Positions 485 through 16,176 of a stretch of 64,000 bases of DNA are shown here, one piece after another. The DNA comes from Fluviicoccus sp. (lineage in GTDB: Bacteria; Pseudomonadota; Gammaproteobacteria; Pseudomonadales; Moraxellaceae). Numbering within the stretch: the first letter of the stretch is position 1; every line of letters begins with the position of its first letter. A program made the position numbers and the translations under genes. Below the pieces are notes generated by a model. That model made no database searches and was not told the origin of the DNA. It saw only the letters and a list, made by a program, of their open reading frames with translations. The stretch lies in assembly GCF_030646115.1 (NCBI RefSeq), contig NZ_JAUSMX010000009.1, positions 434,001-498,000 on the forward strand. Direction: 5' to 3'.

Positions 485-1258
485 ATGCGCCCCGTGTCAG
501 CCACTGAACTGTTGATTTTGTTTGTGGTTTCATTAGCGGCCAACTTGTTGTCGGCTTTGGCGGGCGGTGGCGCCGGATTACTGCAGTTGCCGGCATTGCT
601 GATTCTCGGTTTACCGTTCGGCACGGCGCTGGCGACACACAAGATTGCCAGTGTTGCTTTGGGGGTGGGGGCTGGGCTCCGGCATTTCCAGAACCGCACC
701 CTGGCGTCAGGCTTGTCAATGCTGATTCTGGTGGCCGGGCTGCCCGGGGTTTGGCTGGGAACCCGGATCATATTGTCTGTTCCCGAGCGTTTGGCGGAAT
801 TGAGTCTCGGTCTTCTGACATTGGGTTTGGGAGGCTACTCCTTCTGCAAGCCGCAACTGGGTCAACATAGTGTCGAAACGCGGCACGACTGGAGAGGGCT
901 CTTGGGCGGAGGGGTGGTATTGTTTCTGATAGGCATGCTAAACGGGTCCTTGACCTCGGGAACCGGACTGTTTGTCACCATTTGGCTGGTGCGTTGGTTC
1001 GGACTGGATTTTATGACAGCCGTGTCATATACCCTGATTCTGGTGGGATTGTTCTGGAATGGTGCGGGTGCCTTGCTGCTCGGACTGCAGGCGCCGATAG
1101 CCTGGAGCTGGCTGCCTCCCCTGATTGCTGGCTCATTGATTGGCGGCTATGCCGGAGCGCACTGGAGCTTGCTGAAAGGTAATGCCTGGGTCAAGCGCTC
1201 CTTCGAGGTATTGACGGTTCTGGTCGGTCTACACCTGATTCTGGATGCCATCAGATAA
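485..1258 (+). CDS. TauE/SafE-family membrane permease (sulfite/organosulfonate exporter family)
   Basis: A 257-residue, very hydrophobic protein with about eight predicted membrane helices. It has the family's N-terminal signature of a helix followed by a Gly-rich turn (SALAGGGAGLLQLPALL) and a second-half repeat with GMLNGSLTSGTGLF. The length is typical for the family. ATG 485 is preferred; an in-frame TTG at 461 would add eight residues without a better ribosome binding site. Family members move sulfite, sulfonates or other small anions across the inner membrane; the substrate here cannot be told and there is no sulfur-metabolism neighbour. Its last 30 bp overlap the 3' end of the convergent GGDEF-EAL gene. 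Confidence 0.8.
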   Translation: MRPVSATELLILFVVSLAANLLSALAGGGAGLLQLPALLILGLPFGTALATHKIASVALGVGAGLRHFQNRTLASGLSMLILVAGLPGVWLGTRIILSVPERLAELSLGLLTLGLGGYSFCKPQLGQHSVETRHDWRGLLGGGVVLFLIGMLNGSLTSGTGLFVTIWLVRWFGLDFMTAVSYTLILVGLFWNGAGALLLGLQAPIAWSWLPPLIAGSLIGGYAGAHWSLLKGNAWVKRSFEVLTVLVGLHLILDAIR

Positions 1259-3400
1259 TGCGCAGGAACTGCGCCGGGCTGCATCCCATGCGATCAACTC
1301 GTCCAGCCGCATTGGGGCACCCGGCATGTAGCCTTGAACTGAATGACACTTGAGCGATGCCAGCAGTTTCCATTGATCATTGTTTTCAACACCTTTGGCA
1401 ATTATCTCCCACCCCATGTGGCCAGCCATGGAGATCAGTGCTGCCAAAATATCATGATCATGTGTCACTTCATTCGAACTCAACAGGCATCGATCCAGTT
1501 TGAGTGCAGAAATGGGTAAGGTTTTAAGCCAAAGCAGGGAAGAAGAACCGGTACCGAAATCATCAACCACCAGCCGAATGCCTGAACCCTGCAAGCGGGA
1601 AAGGAAGGCTGGAGCTTTGTGCCGGAATTCAAAAAGAATGGATTCGGAAATTTCAAGCCTGAACGTAGCAGGACTGACGCCTTCTTCCTCAAGGATACGC
1701 ACAGTATCCGCCACAAACCGTTCATTGTTCATGTTCAGGGAAGAGCAGTTCATGCTGATATGCAAGCCGTGGAAAATTCCTGAAAGAATAGTCAGATCCT
1801 TGCAAATGCGACGGATCACCCAAGTGTCAATCAGGTCAATGAACCCGTTGAATTCTGCAATATTGATGAAATGGTCCGGAGTGAGAATGCCCTTGACCGG
1901 GTGCTGCCATCTGACCAAGGCCTCTACTGAGCATAGCGTGTTGTTGTCCAGTGAAAGCACCGGCTGGTAGAGCAGGAAGAGTTCTGATTCGGTAATGGCC
2001 TTTTGCAAGTCCTGCTGGATTTTGAGTTCGCGGTGTGATTTGTGCTGAAGGTAGTCACTGTAATAATTAAAGGTGTTCCGGCCGCTCCCCTTGGATTGAT
2101 AGAGCGCGTAATCCGCATTCTTGATCAACAAGTCCTGATGGTCGCCGTCATGGGGGAACAGGCTGATGCCGATGCTGGTGGTGGTGGTGACAGCGCGTCC
2201 ACTAATGGCAATTGGCTCCTGCATTTTTTGCAGGATGCGGTTGGCGATAGCCTTGGACTCAGCGGTGGTGCTGATAGGCGCAACCAGACAGAATTCGTCC
2301 CCGCCCAGTCTCCCAATCAGATCGTGCCCACGTAAAACACTACGCAAGCGCCGTGAAATGATGCGCAATAGCTCATCACCGGCAGCATGTCCCAAGGTGT
2401 CATTGACCTGTTTGAAGTTGTCCAAGTCGATAAACAGTATGGCGAGGCGTCCACCGGCCTGACGGGACTCATGAAGCCGGGCTGCAAAGGCCTCCATGAA
2501 GGCGTGGCGGTTATATAAGGATGTTAGCGGATCGTAGTGGGCCAGTTGCTCAAGGCCTTCACGGGTGTTATGCATCTCTTCTACCAGAGAGCGGGTCTGA
2601 ACAAGACTCTCGGACTGCTCCGTCAGTTTCCGGAAGGCGAACAATGCCAGAAAAAGAGTCATTACGGCGATAAAAAAAGTCAGAGAAATAAACAGCGCCA
2701 GAATCAGGTGACCTGCGGTCTTGTCAGGTCCGGCGGTGATGGAGTCCGAAGGGAAAAACAGGACAGAGTGGATGGTAAGCCGGTATTCTGTACAGATCAG
2801 TATCGCCAGCAACAGCGAAAATCCTGCCGACTCAACAGCGCGGTCGGGGTTGCGGGGGGTCAAAAAACGCCAGGCTGCCAACCCGTTAGTCAACACCATC
2901 AAAGCGAACACCCAGAGTATGTTTGCAGGACTCAGATACAAAGGGCCAAGAGTGGACAGCGGCGACAATGGCGCCAGCACCATCATGGCCATGGAAACCC
3001 CCAGGAGAAGGGCGGAAATTGTTTTGGAAGTCAGGAGGCTGCGGTCAGGCGGAATATGAAAAAGCAGGAAGGTGCATCCCCATACTGCGATAAAAACCAA
3101 CAGCCAAATGCCGCTGAACCCGCTGAAAGGCAGCAATAGACCCAGATAGAGAACGAAAATACCGGACCAGAGAGCACCCGCCAAAACCAGGCTTCCTGCC
3201 AGTTGCCAGAAGGGCAGGGTGTTGTCCGGCAAGAGCCCGGGATGATGAATGCGGGCATGGAAATGCTGGCAGGAATAGAACCCGGCTGCCAGCACCAGTA
3301 AAGCGATCAGCAGATGAGCAGGGCTGTGCGGCCAGACGTGGACAACGGATTGATGGCTTCCAATCCCGGCCAGATACCATGGCGTCCAGTCATCAAACAT
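1229..3400 (-). CDS. Membrane GGDEF-EAL protein with degenerate EAL site
   Basis: 723 residues. Residues ~25-255 hold about seven hydrophobic helices of no recognised sensor family, followed by a short coiled coil (~258-285), a GGDEF domain (~287-450) and an EAL domain (~458-712). The cyclase site GGDEF is intact at 366-370 and the product-inhibition motif RxxD at 357-360. In the EAL domain, EAL (493-495), the DDFGTG loop (613-618) and the QGY glutamine (689) are present. The glutamate that opens the usual AEGVE motif is a lysine (K669), a position known to matter for phosphodiesterase chemistry. The likely net activity is c-di-GMP synthesis, or GTP/c-di-GMP-modulated signalling. The start has a strong AAGGAG 8 nt upstream. 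Its position beside the Pil-Chp locus would suit control of surface behaviour (inference). Confidence 0.9.
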   Translation of the reverse strand: MFDDWTPWYLAGIGSHQSVVHVWPHSPAHLLIALLVLAAGFYSCQHFHARIHHPGLLPDNTLPFWQLAGSLVLAGALWSGIFVLYLGLLLPFSGFSGIWLLVFIAVWGCTFLLFHIPPDRSLLTSKTISALLLGVSMAMMVLAPLSPLSTLGPLYLSPANILWVFALMVLTNGLAAWRFLTPRNPDRAVESAGFSLLLAILICTEYRLTIHSVLFFPSDSITAGPDKTAGHLILALFISLTFFIAVMTLFLALFAFRKLTEQSESLVQTRSLVEEMHNTREGLEQLAHYDPLTSLYNRHAFMEAFAARLHESRQAGGRLAILFIDLDNFKQVNDTLGHAAGDELLRIISRRLRSVLRGHDLIGRLGGDEFCLVAPISTTAESKAIANRILQKMQEPIAISGRAVTTTTSIGISLFPHDGDHQDLLIKNADYALYQSKGSGRNTFNYYSDYLQHKSHRELKIQQDLQKAITESELFLLYQPVLSLDNNTLCSVEALVRWQHPVKGILTPDHFINIAEFNGFIDLIDTWVIRRICKDLTILSGIFHGLHISMNCSSLNMNNERFVADTVRILEEEGVSPATFRLEISESILFEFRHKAPAFLSRLQGSGIRLVVDDFGTGSSSLLWLKTLPISALKLDRCLLSSNEVTHDHDILAALISMAGHMGWEIIAKGVENNDQWKLLASLKCHSVQGYMPGAPMRLDELIAWDAARRSSCALSDGIQNQV

Positions 3401-8262: not shown

Positions 8263-11200
8263 ATGAGCAATAATCATAATTTTCTCGCGTTGGACTGGGT
8301 AAAAAGCGAAATTGAAGAAACGCTGAAGCAAGCCCAGCAATCATTGGAAGCGCATGTTGCCAATGAAAGTGATTCCTCCCAATTACGCTTTTGCCTTGCC
8401 TATCTGCATCAAATCTTCGGCACCCTGCAAATGGTAGAGTTTCATGGCGCAGCCATGCTTGCGGAAGAGATGGAGAAGTTATGCCTGGCGCTGGTCAACG
8501 GCAAATGCCGAAACAACAAGGCTGCCTATGACGCACTGGTCAAAGCCATGCTGCAATTACCTGCATATCTTGAGCGTTTGCAAGTCAGCAAGCGTGATAC
8601 TCCATTTGTCCTTTTGCCTGCTATCAATGAATTGCGCGTTGCACATGATGAGGCTCCGCTCTCAGAAATCGCATTGTTCCAGCCTGATTTTTCTCGTGTG
8701 TTTGCTATTGCAGCACAGGGAGGCAGTACACCAACGGCGGAAAATCTAAAAAAACTGCGTCATCTCTACCAGTTAGGGTTGTTGGGAGTATTACGTCAGC
8801 AAAATGTACGCGAAGGTCTTGATACCCTGCATCAGGCATTGGGCTTGCTGGGAACCCTTCTGGGACAGAAGTCGCTGCAGGCGTTGTGGCAAATCAGCGA
8901 GGCTTTGATTGAGGGGCTGATCAACAAGTCGATTCCGTTGACACCTGCCGTCAAGCAATTGCTGGGTGATATTGAACATGAGATCCGTAAATTTGCCGGT
9001 TACCCGCAGCATAATCCATCGCTCGAACTGTTGAAAAACATTCTGTATTACATTGCCAAAAGTCAGGGAACTTCTCCGACCATTGCCGCAATCCGCGCGT
9101 TGTATCGTTTGGATGAGGCCCTGCCATCACAGGAAAAAGTAGAAGCGGAAAAGGACAAACTGAATGCCCCCAATCGGGATGCGCTCAAGTCGGTCATTGC
9201 CAACATTGACGCCGAGCTGGTTACTGTCAAAGACGCCATTGATGATTTGATGTATGCAGAGCGCCCGTCGGTGCAGACACTGGAGCCACTACTCCCCTTG
9301 CTGCGACAAATGTCAAGTACGCTTATGGTTATGGGCTGGACGCATTTGCAGCGGATTGTGGATGAGCAACTGGTTGTGATGTCCGGAGCAATCCGCAATG
9401 ACGAAGTCGCGGAAGGTACTCTGCTGCACATAGCGGCTGGATTGCTGGAAGTAGAGTCCGGATTGCAGCAAATGATTGATGAAGGTTCCTCCGGTGAGAA
9501 CTACACCGGTAGTGGAACTGTGGCTGATCAGCTCTCAACCGCCCAAGCGGCAGTCTTGAGGGAGTCGCGCACAGCGCTTGAAAAGTCCAAGGAAGTGATA
9601 GTCGAATATATCAGCTCACAATGGGATCCGTTGCGGCTGACCGAGCTGCCTCAACTGTTGAAAACAGTGCGTGGAGGCTTGACCATGCTGGATCTGGTTC
9701 GCCCTTCGCAGATACTCGGCAAGCTGACCGACTTTGTTGAGCAACATCTGTTGCGTGAAGCCTATCGACCAAGCTGGTCCGAAATGGATACCATGGCCGA
9801 TATAGTTTCCTCTGTCGAGTATTACCTTGAGCGGATGGCAAATCATCATCAAAATAATGACTTGCTGGAACTGGCCGAAAAAGCTCTGGACAAACTGGGT
9901 TATGGGCTTGTTTTTGCCGCTCCGGCCATACAGTTTCCGATCCAGCCTTATCATGACATGCTGGAGACGCGTAAAGAGCCCGAGCAGGATCAGTCGCCTG
10001 CATCAGAGATGCAGGAAGCCGGAGATACTCAGCAAACTTTATTGAATATTCCAGCGCTGGTCCTGCCGGAAGTATTAGAAGACTTGCATCCGTCAAATGA
10101 GACGGCGGTAAACCTGCCGGTTGCGTTAATTGATGATGACGCATTAATTGACAATGATGATATCAGTGGAAAAACCTTGGTCGGGATGCCTGCTCTAGTG
10201 TTGCCTGAAGAGCCTGTTCAGGAAGAGCCGTCATTTAGTATGGACAGCACACTCACTGAAATTCCAGCGCTTGAAATTGAAAGCTTGGCAGAGCCAAGCC
10301 AGGAGTTTGCGGAAAAAACATTGTTGAGTATTCCGGTCATCACCGATGACATGCTCAAAGGCAATGTGACTGATCCGGATCGAACACTGATCAATATGCC
10401 TGCCCTCAACATTCCGTTGATGGAAGACTCGCCGCAAGCTGATGCCGTAGACAAAACATTGTTGAGCATTCCTGTTGTCGATATTCCTTTGGCAGAAACC
10501 GCCTCGGAGCAATCATTCAGTTCGTTCAATGATTTTGACAGCACCGTCAGCTTTGATGCGGAAGCCTTGTTGGGGGATATGACCTTTACGTTGCGCCCAT
10601 CTACAACCGCAGTTCAATCCACTTCCACTGTTCAGGTTGAAGAGGAAGTACTAATACCTGAGCCGGATGTTGCCCCGGAGCCAATTCATCCGGAGACTAT
10701 TGATGCCGCCGATGTTGTAGTGGCAGACGGTGAAGTCACAACTGTCCTGGCGGAAGCCAATGAAGTTCAGGCAGATGATTTGATGGTTGATGCTGATGAA
10801 ACGATTGGCTATCAATCGGAAGAAACATCCATCAGCATGGGTTCTGATACATTGGAGTCTGCGCCGGTAGCTCGACCGGTTCGCCCAGTTTTTGCAGCCA
10901 TGCCTGAGGATGATTTCGACCAGGATGATGAAATTCGTGAAATCTTCATTGAAGAAGCAACTGAAGTCATGGAAACCATCCATGAGTTCTTCCCCAAATG
11001 GGCATCCAATTTTGAAAACAAGAATGCACTGACCGAGTTCCGTCGGGGATTTCATACTCTTAAAGGTTCAGGCCGCATGGTTGGCGCCCGGGTTGTGGGT
11101 GAGTTGGCGTGGTCCATTGAGAACATGCTTAATCGGGTCATTGATAAGACCGCTACAGCCAATGGAGTCATGGTCAACCTCATTTCAGCAGTGCTGGAAG

Positions 11201-14200
11201 TAGTGCCCGAGCTGGTTGAAAACTACAACCAAAGAGCTCTGCCTTCTATCCACACCGTACCGTTGATGGAGTTAGCGAATCGCTTTGGGAAAGGTGAAAG
11301 CCCGACGGAGAAAGAACTCGCTGAAGCTATTGCCTGGTCGAGCCAGACTGAGTCTGAAATTGACTCTGAGCCAGTCAACGAGCCCGAAGATCAAATTTCC
11401 AGCATTGAAGTCATGTCGGATGCCAGCTCTACATCCATGGAAGCCGAAGAGATACAGAGCTTTGATTCCGAGTTTGCGGATGACGAAGTATTTGAGCTGG
11501 AAGAAGTGATTAGCGAAGCTGATGAGGCTCCTGGACTTGTTGGGCAAGCAGAAACTGGCGAGTTGGAATCAGCAAATCAGCAAGCTGCAGAGCCGCAAAC
11601 CGAGCAAACGCAGTTGCTGGAAATCGAGACCGTTGAAGGCGGATCTGCTCTAAAAGGGTCTGCAGTAGTAAGCAAGATTAATGTCCTGAATCATATGCCT
11701 CAGGATGATTTTAGCCAGGATGATGAAATCCGGGAAATTTTCATCGAAGAAGCGGAAGAGGTTATGGAGACTATCCATGAGTTCTTCCCGAAGTGGGCGG
11801 CCAACTTTAATAACAAAAGCGCGCTGACGGAATTCCGGCGTGGATTCCATACCCTGAAAGGCTCTGGCCGCATGGTTGGCGGCAAAGTTGTTGGAGAATT
11901 GGCTTGGTCGATTGAGAACATGCTGAATCGAGTCATTGATCATACGGCAACTCCGAATGAGGCAATGACGCGACTGATTACGGAAGTGCTGGGCTTAATT
12001 CCGGAGCTGGTAACAGCGTTCCAGAATCGGGAATCACCTTCGATTGACACGGGTCCGATGATGACCGTTGCCGACGAATTCTCCCGAGCGAATCCTGTAA
12101 CGGTTGACCGGGTTCTTGACGCCGTGAATCAGGCCCGTCACCTGGCAGATTCCAGTGAGGTCGCACAAGTTGATGCGGTGGCAAGTGAAACGATTTTGGA
12201 TAATGACGATGCCCCTGAGGCCGTCAGTGCGTCTTTCGATGACAATGTTTCTGTTCAGGCTCAGCATTCAGAAACAGTAGAACAGAATCATACGGATGCA
12301 TTCGAGGCATTGGCCAGCAGCCTGGAACAAGTCAATCCGGAAGACTCTGATGCCGGAGCCGATCCGGTGTTGATGGAAATTTTTGTATGCGAGGCAAATA
12401 CTTACCTTGATGAAATTGAACAATTTTTACAAGGTGTAAGTCATGGCGCTCGAATGGTGGTTACGGACGAGGTTTTGCGCGCCCTGCATACCTTGAGAGG
12501 CAGTTCGGGAATGGCTGGTGTCAAAACAGTCGCCGGAATTGCTGCGCCCATGGAAACACTGTTCAAGGATCTTCGCAATCAAGGCCGGATGCTCAATGCT
12601 GCACATATTGAATTGCTGGGTGAAACCCATCGGTTGATCAAGCAGAGCATCAATAGTGTAGCCGGTGGCGGACAAGGTCTTGTGTCTGGTGATGACTTGT
12701 TGCTGGAACGGATCGAGCAGGTATCACGGACTCCGGCGGAAGCGCATGAGGAAACTTATGAGGTAGATCAGGCGGCAAATACAGCCGGTATTGTTGCAGG
12801 ATTCCTGGATTTAGGTCTGGATCACCTTCTGGATGCTCCTTGGGAGCTTTCTGGGTGGTTGAACGGTGATGACAGGGACGAGCACATCGCAACCATGTTG
12901 GGTGAACTGCATCAACTGCACCCTGAGGCCGTTAAAGCCAAGATTGAACCCTTGTCACAACTGGTCGCCGGTTTGACGGGTGTCTATCGCCAGATTTCCC
13001 GGGATCCGCAAAGCTCATTGGCCAATGAAGCCTTGATGGAGGCGCTGGCTAATGCCCATGATGAACTCATCAATATTTTCGATACACTGGCTGCTTGTCA
13101 GACCGTAGGCGCAAATGATGAACTGATCCAGAAACTGGCAGACTGGAGCGCTGTTGCTGTTGAACCTGCGGAGCAACCCGTCAGACCGGTAGCTGAAATT
13201 GACAATGGTGCCGATGCTGAATTGCTATCCATCTTCCTTGAGGAAGGTGAGGAAGTATTACAAGCTGCCGATGACGAATTCCAGTCATGGAAACAGGATC
13301 CGGATAACAAGCAGGCGCTCCGGGCATTGCAACGCCACTTGCATACATTGAAAGGTGGAGCCAGGATGGCGGTTGTGGCCAGTTTGGGTGACTTGGCTCA
13401 CGAACTGGAGTTTATCTATGAGGGCTTGCTCGATGGTCGTTACCTGCCTTCACCAATCCTGACGGACCTGCTGCTGCGCTGTCATGACCGAATTGCCGGG
13501 CAACTGAGTGACCTGATGGCAACGGGTCGCTGTGAGTACGCTAAAGATTTGGTCGAGGTGATCAATCAATATCGGCACACTCCCAAGGACACGGTAATTC
13601 TGGATTTTTTCTCCTCAGCGGCAGGTGGCTCGACTGAGGCACCGTCAATCCAGCCTGCTGCTGAGCCTGAATTGCAAGTTGCCGTCGCTGAGGACAACTC
13701 CCTGTCACCAGCAGTCGCAACTTTTGTGCAGCCTGAAGTTGAACTGGAAGTCCCGACTTCTCCGGCTGAAGGACCATCCAGTGGCTTTGATGCTGAAATG
13801 CTGGAAATTTTCCTGGAGGAAGCTCAGGAAATCGTGGAGGAAACCAATAGCAAACTTGCCGAATGGCAAAGTAATCCGGCTGACACAGGTCCAGTTAAGA
13901 TACTGCAGCGTGGACTTCATACCTTGAAAGGTGGAGCCCGCATGTCAGGTGTGACTGCGTTGGGAGATTTGGCTCATGAAATGGAAAACCTCTATGAAGG
14001 GGCATGCCTGAATCGCTATCAAGGGACACCGGCTGTATTTTCCATTTTGCAACGGTGCCATGACCGTATAGCAGAAGCTGTTGATATGCTGCAGGCAAGC
14101 GGACAGTGCCCCGGCGTGAGCGACTTGGTCAACGCCTTGAAACGATACCTGAGCAATCCGGCAATATTCAGTGATGACCGCTCTGAGGCTGCGTCGGTCA

Positions 14201-16176
14201 AGTTGTCAGCAGCACCCGTTATTCCTGCCGTTGTGCAAGCGGCTGTCGAGGTTGCGACTGTAGCCGCTAGTGCTCCTATGATGGATGAGGTTGGTATTCC
14301 ATCCATGCTGGGCAACTTCCGCAATCTTAAGGCCCAGCAAACCGCTCAAGAAATGATCCGTGTTTCTTCGGAGTTGATGGAAAAACTGATTAACCTGGCG
14401 GGTGAAGGTTCAATTATCCGTTCTCGGGTTGAAATGGGTGTGCATGGATTCGCACAAACGGTAGAAGAAATGGGCGCCACCGTTCAACGTCTGGCTGATC
14501 AGTTGCGCCGGATGCAGGGTGAACTTGAGTCTCAGATTATTGCGCAGCACACCACCGAAGGCGGTAAGTACGAAGATTTCGACCCATTGGAGATGGACCA
14601 ATATTCATCAGTCAATCAGTTGTCGAAGTCACTGTACGAATCGGCTTCCGACTTGATGGACATCAAGGGAACGCTGATTGAAAAAGCCCGGGACACAGAA
14701 ACCCTGTTATTGCAGCAGGCACGCCTGAATACGGAACTGCAGGAGGGCCTGATGAGTTCGCGAATGGTGCCTTTCTCGCGATTGGCCCCTCGCTTGCAGC
14801 GTATTGTCCGTCAAACGTCCCAGGAAGTGCATAAGCCAGCTGAGTTGATCGTGATCAACGCTGAAGGCGAAATGGACCGTACCTTGCTGGAGCGGTTGGT
14901 TGCCCCGCTTGAGCACATGCTCCGGAATTCAGTCGATCATGGCATGGAGCCACCCGAAGATCGTGCCCGCAGCGGAAAGGAAATGATGGGGCGCATCACA
15001 CTTACCCTGTCCCGTGAGGGGGGGGAAGTGGTTCTGACCTTGGCTGATGACGGTCGCGGCATCAACGTAGAGGCAGTTCGTAATAAGGCGATTGAGCGCG
15101 GCCTGCTGAGCCCGGATGCGGAAGTCAGTGAAAGAGAATTGTTGCAGTTCATTTTTCATGCTGGTTTGTCCACGGCCCAGAAAGTTACCCAGGTTTCCGG
15201 CCGTGGCGTTGGCATGGACGTTGTTGTCAGTGAAATCAAGCAGTTGGGCGGAGCAATTGCCATTGCTTCGGCACAGGGCAAGGGTACGACATTCACCCTG
15301 AGGTTGCCGTTTACGGTGGCGGTCAGTCGTGCACTGATGGTCCGAATTGGTGAAGATGTGTACGCCATACCGCTTTCGCAGATTGAAGGTATCGTGCGTG
15401 CCAGTCCTTATGAACTGGAAACCTACTATGCCCCGGAGGCACCACCTTTCGAATATGCCGGTATAACCTACAAGCTGCATTATCTGGGTGAGTTTGTTCA
15501 CGGGCTGCGTACGCCGTCATTGTTTGGCCAGACATTGCCGCTGCCAATCCTGTTGGTACGCGGAGGAGAGCAGCGGGTCGCCATTCAGGTGGATCAGTTG
15601 ATTGGCTCGCGTGAAATCGTGGTTAAATCGGTAGGAGCCCAACTGGCCAGTGTCGCCGGTATCTCTGGTGCCACGATTCTGGGTGATGGTTCGGTGGTCA
15701 TCATTCTTGACGTACAGGCCATGCTCCGTGCAGCGGCCATTTCCAAGCCACGTCAGAAGAGCGATGTCGAAAAAGCGCGCGTTGTTCCTGAGAAGGCGAC
15801 CCGGACCGTCATGGTGGTAGACGACTCGGTCACGGTGCGCAAAGTGACTTCGCGACTGCTGGAACGTCATGGTTACGAGGTCGTTCTGGCAAAAGACGGT
15901 CTGGATGCAATCACCAAGCTGGAAGATATCCGCCCGGATATCATGCTGCTCGATATCGAAATGCCGCGCATGGATGGTTTTGAAGTGGCTTCTTTGGTGC
16001 GGCACAACCCGAATCTGGTCGGCTTGCCAATCATCATGATCACCTCGCGTACGGGTGAAAAGCACCGTGAACGGGCCTTCCAGATCGGAGTTAATTGCTA
16101 CATGGGCAAGCCATTCCAGGAACAACAGTTGCTGGATACAATCGGCGAGTTGCTGGCCACTGCGGTTGAGAGGTAA
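8263..16176 (+). CDS. chpA: ChpA, giant hybrid CheA-type histidine kinase with multiple HPt domains
   Basis: 2637 residues, slightly longer than Pseudomonas ChpA. Order: a FimL/ChpA N-terminal helical module (1-~570); an acidic unstructured linker with a seven-copy repeat (~590-740); five canonical HPt domains with phosphoacceptor His at 931, 1196, 1409, 1694 and 1886; a degenerate helical module without His (~1505-1630) between the third and fourth; a CheA dimerisation segment (~2030-2150); a HATPase with N-box Asn 2222 and DDGRG; a CheW-like domain (~2350-2490); and a C-terminal receiver with phosphoacceptor D2564. In Pil-Chp systems ChpA passes phosphate from PilJ/PilI arrays to PilG and PilH. 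The long acidic linkers keep the HPt modules mobile. The reading frame is intact throughout. Confidence 0.97.
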   Translation: MSNNHNFLALDWVKSEIEETLKQAQQSLEAHVANESDSSQLRFCLAYLHQIFGTLQMVEFHGAAMLAEEMEKLCLALVNGKCRNNKAAYDALVKAMLQLPAYLERLQVSKRDTPFVLLPAINELRVAHDEAPLSEIALFQPDFSRVFAIAAQGGSTPTAENLKKLRHLYQLGLLGVLRQQNVREGLDTLHQALGLLGTLLGQKSLQALWQISEALIEGLINKSIPLTPAVKQLLGDIEHEIRKFAGYPQHNPSLELLKNILYYIAKSQGTSPTIAAIRALYRLDEALPSQEKVEAEKDKLNAPNRDALKSVIANIDAELVTVKDAIDDLMYAERPSVQTLEPLLPLLRQMSSTLMVMGWTHLQRIVDEQLVVMSGAIRNDEVAEGTLLHIAAGLLEVESGLQQMIDEGSSGENYTGSGTVADQLSTAQAAVLRESRTALEKSKEVIVEYISSQWDPLRLTELPQLLKTVRGGLTMLDLVRPSQILGKLTDFVEQHLLREAYRPSWSEMDTMADIVSSVEYYLERMANHHQNNDLLELAEKALDKLGYGLVFAAPAIQFPIQPYHDMLETRKEPEQDQSPASEMQEAGDTQQTLLNIPALVLPEVLEDLHPSNETAVNLPVALIDDDALIDNDDISGKTLVGMPALVLPEEPVQEEPSFSMDSTLTEIPALEIESLAEPSQEFAEKTLLSIPVITDDMLKGNVTDPDRTLINMPALNIPLMEDSPQADAVDKTLLSIPVVDIPLAETASEQSFSSFNDFDSTVSFDAEALLGDMTFTLRPSTTAVQSTSTVQVEEEVLIPEPDVAPEPIHPETIDAADVVVADGEVTTVLAEANEVQADDLMVDADETIGYQSEETSISMGSDTLESAPVARPVRPVFAAMPEDDFDQDDEIREIFIEEATEVMETIHEFFPKWASNFENKNALTEFRRGFHTLKGSGRMVGARVVGELAWSIENMLNRVIDKTATANGVMVNLISAVLEVVPELVENYNQRALPSIHTVPLMELANRFGKGESPTEKELAEAIAWSSQTESEIDSEPVNEPEDQISSIEVMSDASSTSMEAEEIQSFDSEFADDEVFELEEVISEADEAPGLVGQAETGELESANQQAAEPQTEQTQLLEIETVEGGSALKGSAVVSKINVLNHMPQDDFSQDDEIREIFIEEAEEVMETIHEFFPKWAANFNNKSALTEFRRGFHTLKGSGRMVGGKVVGELAWSIENMLNRVIDHTATPNEAMTRLITEVLGLIPELVTAFQNRESPSIDTGPMMTVADEFSRANPVTVDRVLDAVNQARHLADSSEVAQVDAVASETILDNDDAPEAVSASFDDNVSVQAQHSETVEQNHTDAFEALASSLEQVNPEDSDAGADPVLMEIFVCEANTYLDEIEQFLQGVSHGARMVVTDEVLRALHTLRGSSGMAGVKTVAGIAAPMETLFKDLRNQGRMLNAAHIELLGETHRLIKQSINSVAGGGQGLVSGDDLLLERIEQVSRTPAEAHEETYEVDQAANTAGIVAGFLDLGLDHLLDAPWELSGWLNGDDRDEHIATMLGELHQLHPEAVKAKIEPLSQLVAGLTGVYRQISRDPQSSLANEALMEALANAHDELINIFDTLAACQTVGANDELIQKLADWSAVAVEPAEQPVRPVAEIDNGADAELLSIFLEEGEEVLQAADDEFQSWKQDPDNKQALRALQRHLHTLKGGARMAVVASLGDLAHELEFIYEGLLDGRYLPSPILTDLLLRCHDRIAGQLSDLMATGRCEYAKDLVEVINQYRHTPKDTVILDFFSSAAGGSTEAPSIQPAAEPELQVAVAEDNSLSPAVATFVQPEVELEVPTSPAEGPSSGFDAEMLEIFLEEAQEIVEETNSKLAEWQSNPADTGPVKILQRGLHTLKGGARMSGVTALGDLAHEMENLYEGACLNRYQGTPAVFSILQRCHDRIAEAVDMLQASGQCPGVSDLVNALKRYLSNPAIFSDDRSEAASVKLSAAPVIPAVVQAAVEVATVAASAPMMDEVGIPSMLGNFRNLKAQQTAQEMIRVSSELMEKLINLAGEGSIIRSRVEMGVHGFAQTVEEMGATVQRLADQLRRMQGELESQIIAQHTTEGGKYEDFDPLEMDQYSSVNQLSKSLYESASDLMDIKGTLIEKARDTETLLLQQARLNTELQEGLMSSRMVPFSRLAPRLQRIVRQTSQEVHKPAELIVINAEGEMDRTLLERLVAPLEHMLRNSVDHGMEPPEDRARSGKEMMGRITLTLSREGGEVVLTLADDGRGINVEAVRNKAIERGLLSPDAEVSERELLQFIFHAGLSTAQKVTQVSGRGVGMDVVVSEIKQLGGAIAIASAQGKGTTFTLRLPFTVAVSRALMVRIGEDVYAIPLSQIEGIVRASPYELETYYAPEAPPFEYAGITYKLHYLGEFVHGLRTPSLFGQTLPLPILLVRGGEQRVAIQVDQLIGSREIVVKSVGAQLASVAGISGATILGDGSVVIILDVQAMLRAAAISKPRQKSDVEKARVVPEKATRTVMVVDDSVTVRKVTSRLLERHGYEVVLAKDGLDAITKLEDIRPDIMLLDIEMPRMDGFEVASLVRHNPNLVGLPIIMITSRTGEKHRERAFQIGVNCYMGKPFQEQQLLDTIGELLATAVER
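10030..10485 (+). repeat. Seven-copy ~23-residue linear-motif repeat inside ChpA
   Basis: The acidic linker of ChpA carries the motif x-T-L-x-x-(I/M/L)-P-(A/V)-(L/V), often followed by two or three residues and another Pro. The Thr residues are at 592, 614 (degenerate, TAVNLPVAL), 638, 663, 686, 708 and 732, a spacing of 22, 24, 25, 23, 22 and 24 residues. A weaker eighth copy may start at T761. Copies use different synonymous codons, so the repeat is conserved at protein level rather than being a recent DNA expansion. Function unknown. Confidence 0.85.
10900..11172 (+). repeat. HPt domain copy 1 of an intragenic duplicate in ChpA
   Basis: ChpA residues 880-970. This 91-residue block aligns without gaps to residues 1145-1235 (11695-11967), with 79 of 91 residues identical by my count, including the whole phosphorylation motif around His 931. 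The DNA differs at many third codon positions. Confidence 0.9.
11695..11967 (+). repeat. HPt domain copy 2 of an intragenic duplicate in ChpA
   Basis: ChpA residues 1145-1235, the partner of the block at 10900-11172, offset by exactly 795 bp. Phosphoacceptor His 1196 sits in the same HTLKGSGRM context as His 931. Confidence 0.9.

Follow-up and report, generated by a model that had tools for sequence, protein, structure and literature searches.

The window, a 64,000-nucleotide stretch of a Fluviicoccus sp. contig, contains a gene cluster of the type IV pilus chemosensory system (Pil-Chp) in the order pilG-pilH-pilI-pilJ-pilK-chpA-chpB-chpC-like, in which the gene names are the authors' own reading of domain matches. 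The genes pilG and pilH encode two single-domain response regulators and pilI a CheW-like protein; the chpC-like frame is 161 aa long and is named by no NCBIfam model. Upstream of pilG, and in the opposite orientation, lies the gene of a 723-aa GGDEF-EAL protein (1232-3400, minus). The product of chpA has six Hpt stretches and the Pfam domains HATPase_c, CheW and Response_reg. With a CheA core (HATPase, CheW-like domain), several HPts and a receiver at the C terminus, the protein belongs to the Tfp-class CheA proteins, and it has the FimL-like N-terminal module and the pil-chp neighbourhood expected of ChpA. The Pfam matches of ChpA up to E 0.01 do not include a P2 docking domain. The initial annotation had recognized the N-terminal module as FimL-like, in agreement with a FimL-like paralogue, a 562-aa frame at another place in the genome, which matches ChpA residues 8-550 with 27% identity. 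The HPt duplication proposed there is also present, since residues 811-996 recur with 60% identity. The features of chpA are positioned in the window as follows:

8263..16176, plus strand: chpA, a single open reading frame of 2637 aa
8263..9912, plus strand: FimL-like N-terminal module (residues 1-550), from the paralogue match and AlphaFold2
9931..10878, plus strand: predicted disordered acidic linker (residues 557-872), pLDDT below 50 in two models
10033..10071, plus strand: motif copy 1, QTLLNIPALVLPE (T592), pattern and profile match
10099..10137, plus strand: motif copy 2, ETAVNLPVALIDD (T614), the weakest copy, profile E 0.052
10171..10209, plus strand: motif copy 3, KTLVGMPALVLPE (T638), pattern and profile match
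10246..10284, plus strand: motif copy 4, STLTEIPALEIES (T663), pattern and profile match
10315..10353, plus strand: motif copy 5, KTLLSIPVITDDM (T686), pattern and profile match
10381..10419, plus strand: motif copy 6, RTLINMPALNIPL (T708), pattern and profile match
10453..10491, plus strand: motif copy 7, KTLLSIPVVDIPL (T732), pattern and profile match
10534..10587, plus strand: second element, FDSTVSFDAEALLGDMTF (residues 758-775), one copy, conserved in 5/5 carriers
10915..11232, plus strand: first HPt of the duplicated pair (about residues 885-990), from Pfam, the internal duplication and AlphaFold2

The linker is acidic, as had been stated, with 42 Asp and Glu against 7 Lys and Arg in residues 561-760, and carries the motif T-[LA]-x-x-[ILM]-P-[AV] seven times. 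The threonines reported at 592, 614, 638, 663, 686, 708 and 732 are all exactly placed, and the measured distances between them (22, 24, 25, 23, 22 and 24 residues) agree with the reported spacing of 22-25 residues. No match to [ST][LA]..[ILM]P other than the seven occurs in the whole 2637-aa protein. Spacing this even was equalled in a fraction of 6e-5 of 200,000 random non-overlapping placements. The seven occurrences of T[LA]..[ILM]P in the linker (residues 557-872) compare with a maximum of three in 20,000 shuffles, far above chance. Because this pattern was chosen after looking at the sequence, the commonest gapped residue triple was also scored with no pattern given. In the linker it is T-L-x-x-x-P, found seven times, namely in six array copies and in a stray TLESAP at T863, with copy 2 (TAVNLP) excluded; among 1000 shuffles, six occurrences were reached in two and seven in none. 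The count in the array alone (residues 586-750) is six, which was reached in 1 of 1000 shuffles.

The genome's own genus is represented in the comparison by one species, and the nearest genus, g5, by four genomes. The motif is present in the same ChpA linker of all four, with three or four regular copies in each. The ChpA linker of G019 has four copies, that of G030 three and one more past a second conserved element, that of G004 three, and that of G040 three and a further one that lacks a residue (KTLIMPAL). A degenerate copy resembling TL[IV]N[MI]xxP is positioned farther along ChpA in G019, G004 and G040. The copies from both genera define the refined motif D-K-T-[LQ]-[LIV]-[NS]-[MI]-P-A-[LV]-x-[LI]-P. 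Columns were counted on 21 regular copies, excluding KTLIMPAL of G040 and the degenerate copies TLINIAVP, TLVNMQIP and TLVNMAIP, which lie beyond the second element. Threonine is found in 21/21 copies and serine never in its place; the proline, the Ala or Val that follows it, and Met, Ile or Leu at +4 are likewise present in all 21. The remaining counts are 15/21 for Asp or Glu at -2, 16/21 for Lys or Arg at -1, 19/21 for Leu or Gln at +1, and 17/21 for Asn or Ser at +3. The initial annotation had proposed to look for both the motif and its period of about 23 residues in the linkers of related species. The motif is kept in g5 (4/4), but the period is not, with spacings of 20-34 residues. Because copy number and spacing differ between the genera, the 23-residue period itself is not conserved.

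The pattern T...[ILM]P[AV], defined on this ChpA alone, occurs 4, 4, 3 and 3 times in the g5 linkers, compared with 0.04-0.09 expected. It has no match in 23 ChpA segments from non-carriers, three of which (L070, L071 and L073) are not the first linker. Segment ends were set by a simple pattern; these three segments start inside the first HPt, and that of L067 extends beyond the HPt. Nine of the 38 ChpA frames (L046 and L074-L081) gave no segment and are covered by the whole-frame profile scan only, and L053/L039 and L054/L040 are duplicate entries of two genomes in the segment tests. Taken alone, the g5 linkers, with few copies each, give P values of 0.43-0.61 in the pattern-free triple test, which is not significant; they contribute solely through matches to the pattern derived from this ChpA. 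The low pattern-free P values of L062 and L065-L071 are due to other triples, from low-complexity sequence or young tandem repeats, and not to the array motif.

The copies had been described as encoded by different codons, which is right in substance. Among the 106 same-residue pairs between copies, 67 have different codons, compared with 71.9 expected under independent codons with the usage of this gene, indicating that synonymous positions are saturated between copies. The saturation, together with conservation in a second genus, sustains the earlier proposal that the repeat is maintained at the protein level. In every pair of copies Thr and Pro are identical, Leu at +1 agrees in a fraction of 0.71, and the columns outside the motif (ten before and two after it) agree in 0.05-0.14. 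A conserved short motif between unconserved spacers is the arrangement of a short linear motif array; the units are not alike throughout, synonymous sites included, as they are in a recent tandem repeat. The array of ChpA may descend from an old duplication of which only the motif is left.

In other genera of the family, ChpA linkers contain young acidic tandem repeats with nearly identical units, unrelated in sequence to the array. The repeated unit is 53-63 aa long in L066, 37 aa in L067 and 30 aa in L069, with three units each, and a 21-aa unit is repeated eight times between the first two HPts of L070; L068 has a run of eleven AEV at the end of the locus. These repeats indicate that ChpA linkers readily grow by duplication. 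It could be argued from young repeats such as those of L070 and L066 that the array is a relic of old slippage in an acidic linker growing by tandem duplication, and has no function. However, the young repeats are alike over the whole unit, whereas in the array the spacers and synonymous sites are randomized and the T, P, A and hydrophobic columns are kept in two genera. A functionless relic is therefore quite improbable.

The second element is present once in the ChpA of each of the five carriers, with the consensus F-x-S-T-[LMV]-[TS]-F-[DN]-A-E-x-x-L-x-[DN]-M. Measured from Thr to Thr, it follows the last preceding motif by 27-30 residues in 5/5 carriers, despite the three to seven copies upstream. 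A profile of the element, built from the carriers, gives 44-52 bits in these and scores none of the other ChpA frames examined above zero. A short helix is predicted in the element in both AlphaFold2 models described below (residues 766-771 and 766-769).

The array profile A1 was trained on the carriers, so that a diverged form of the motif could escape it. Of the 348 family genomes scanned with this profile, 5 give a match at E 0.003, namely this one and the four g5 genomes. At the same threshold the profile matches one of 369 genomes of the class (this one), and at E 0.01 three of 390 genomes of the order, a sample in which g5 was evidently not drawn. The three are this genome, G252 and G264; the latter two have single weak matches in frames of 114 and 64 aa, which are read as chance. 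Over 39 whole ChpA frames, the array profile has no positive score outside the carriers. The ChpA N-terminal 996 aa have no match in 23 of 149 family genomes, indicating that some family genomes lack ChpA. Related ChpA proteins that lack the motif and function unchanged had been named as an argument against the array. Relatives without the motif are common, as 343 of the 348 family genomes, some of them without any ChpA match, have no array match, and the Pil-Chp system therefore probably works without the array in relatives. In a tree of 29 N-terminal modules, the five carriers are on one side of a branch with moderate support (85/79; long branches are flagged), so that a single gain of the array suffices. 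The comparison of sequences indicates that the array is real, conserved, lineage-specific and kept at the protein level, and that it is an accessory of two genera and not a general part of Pil-Chp. Its conservation in the sister genus is a new result beyond the earlier observation.

Within the five carrier genomes, every A1 match up to E 0.052 is inside ChpA, and the next best match has E 0.42. A motif bridging ChpA to another protein of the same genome was considered and rejected, as none of the five genomes has a non-ChpA profile match better than E 0.4. A looser DNA pattern (T-[LF]-x-x-[IM]-P-[AV/..]) occurs at 42 places in this genome, six of them in the array, and its reversed form at 10; the 36 places outside the array, frame and gene context aside, do not cluster. 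A search of solved structures for the motif gave five weak matches only, the best of them at E 0.11 to a CoA-transferase, and is uninformative.

The structure of the linker was predicted with AlphaFold2 in two overlapping segments. In the model of residues 1-1000 (10-row alignment, mean pLDDT 64.5, pTM 0.38), the N module and the first HPt are folded, the N module being nearly all helical with block pLDDT mostly above 70, and residues 550-879 have pLDDT below 50. In the model of residues 586-1746 (6-row alignment, mean 56.9, pTM 0.27), residues 586-887 are below 50. The array has no secondary structure and block means under 40 in both models; it is predicted to be disordered, as is expected of a short linear motif array. 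The linker had been described as an acidic, disordered spacer on which typical docking motifs recur at even distances. At the level of sequence and AlphaFold2 prediction this description is supported, except that the even period is not shared by the relatives, where copies are 20-34 residues apart. The regular 22-25-residue spacing in this ChpA would suit a small repeat domain, such as a solenoid, whose units fold together instead of acting as separate peptides. However, the variable spacing and the three to four regular copies of the relatives, the unconserved columns between the motifs (ten before and two after each) and the lack of predicted secondary structure in the array make such a domain highly improbable.

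The limitation of the profile matches to ChpA in the five carriers is consistent with an intramolecular latch, in which the copies would bind the FimL-like module, the HPts or the core of ChpA itself and fix the kinase in one state. However, block means remain below 40 across the array when it is modelled beside the N module and the first HPt and beside the following HPts, in models that do not extend to the kinase core or to the CheW-like and receiver regions. Because the alignments are shallow (10 and 6 rows), the models are weak evidence against the latch and fair evidence of disorder. A latch is considered distinctly unlikely.

The initial annotation had offered a Ser/Thr kinase target as one guess. 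The invariant threonines may be phosphorylation switches, modified by a Hanks-type kinase and read by an FHA protein or through a loss of binding. The occurrence of threonine in 21/21 copies and serine in none, the acidic residue at -2 in 15/21, and the five Pkinase and three FHA matches in the genome would agree with such switches. However, kinases are present in 19/19 and FHA domains in 18/19 of the genomes tested, in carriers and motif-free genomes alike, so that their distribution is not linked to that of the motif. FHA domains select their ligands at the +3 position, by the rules T-x-x-[ILV] or T-x-x-[DE], which fit 0/21 and 1/21 copies, respectively. Furthermore, phosphorylation alone leaves the equally strict proline and alanine unexplained, and threonine switches are regarded as unlikely. 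Two of the three FHA matches of the genome belong to one open frame of 360 aa (G000:C15:28043-28576, outside the window); genomes of g5 and g13 likewise have frames that match FHA twice.

A moderately probable reading is that the array forms a lineage-specific multivalent docking strip on the disordered ChpA linker. Repeated linear motifs typically combine conserved peptides with divergent spacers, disorder and a variable copy number, as this array is seen or predicted to do, and a docking function as such is likely. Each copy (D-K-T-[LQ]-φ-[NS]-[MI]-P-A-φ-x-[LI]-P) would act as a short extended peptide that binds one partner weakly. With seven such peptides on the flexible acidic linker that joins the FimL-like module to the first HPt, the partner would be concentrated near the phosphotransfer domains, and the putatively helix-forming second element just past the array could provide a fixed second contact. 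The low confidence of the array in the AlphaFold2 models, in which it is undocked on the N module or HPts, is weak evidence against docking, given the 10- and 6-row alignments. The position of the array between the FimL-like module and the HPts, together with the lack of a P2 match, suggests a response regulator or its adaptor as the first guess for the partner. In the authors' view, the most likely single role of the array is to keep such a regulator or adaptor near the HPts, which is the job of P2 in classical CheA.

The partner of the docking strip would plausibly come from the Pil-Chp positioning set, that is, PilG/PilH, FimL or FimV. In P. aeruginosa, PilG is recruited to the pole by both FimL and ChpA (PMC10519157). 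In Acinetobacter baylyi, chpA, pilI, pilG and fimL are required for lining pili up along the cell and pilus positioning requires chpA (PMC9596432). The array may contribute to comparable positioning. For the polar scaffold that the initial annotation had guessed at as an alternative, FimV would be a candidate; it is encoded in this genome, but likewise in motif-free genera. T...[ILM]P[AV] does not occur in the part of FimV covered by locus L161. In the acidic cytoplasmic part of this FimV, S-L-x-x-L-x-x-F and L-x-x-D-F-x-F pieces seem, by eye, to recur. It is possible, although doubtful, that a tunable series of short peptides on a disordered tether takes the place of a folded docking domain in bringing the output partner to the kinase. 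The copy number (three or four versus seven) would then set avidity and twitching behaviour, and the motif would belong to a new class of short linear motifs in bacteria, with a dedicated receptor.

Linker motifs in ChpA are not mentioned in those parts of the Pil-Chp and CheA-architecture literature that were accessible, most subscription journals being outside the search. No literature was found for ChpA and Hpt together with 'intrinsically disordered', and the word 'disordered' is absent from the Pil-Chp and CheA texts searched, PMC12632253 and PMC10519157 among them. A published table of the Pil-Chp components lists the location of ChpA as unknown (PMC12632253). The seemingly inert linker of ChpA carries a strictly conserved repeated peptide and a second fixed element, both known to date from two genera within a single family. 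The array offers a concrete way to test how a kinase of this very large size chooses its partners or its location in the cell, and the motif is now defined well enough to derive a bait peptide for pull-down.

The gene order, the FimL-like N module, several HPts, the CheA core and the receiver are common to this protein and other Pil-Chp ChpA (Tfp-class CheA) proteins; it differs from them in the linker array, for which the remaining family genera that were searched give no profile match. The P2 domain of CheA, which docks CheY and CheB, would resemble the array in holding a partner near the HPt; however, P2 is a folded domain, whereas the array is a predicted disordered row of short peptides. 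EPYC1 and CsoS2 are disordered proteins that carry repeated short binding motifs. As in the ChpA array, a short motif is repeated on a disordered chain, and the spacers are free to diverge, although the motif and the class of protein are different. The C-terminal peptide of FtsZ, with the core D-I-P-A-F-L, has a loose [IM]-P-A-φ resemblance to the motif that may serve as a lead only: unlike that peptide, the ChpA copies are internal and repeated, and are without its flanking Asp and Arg.
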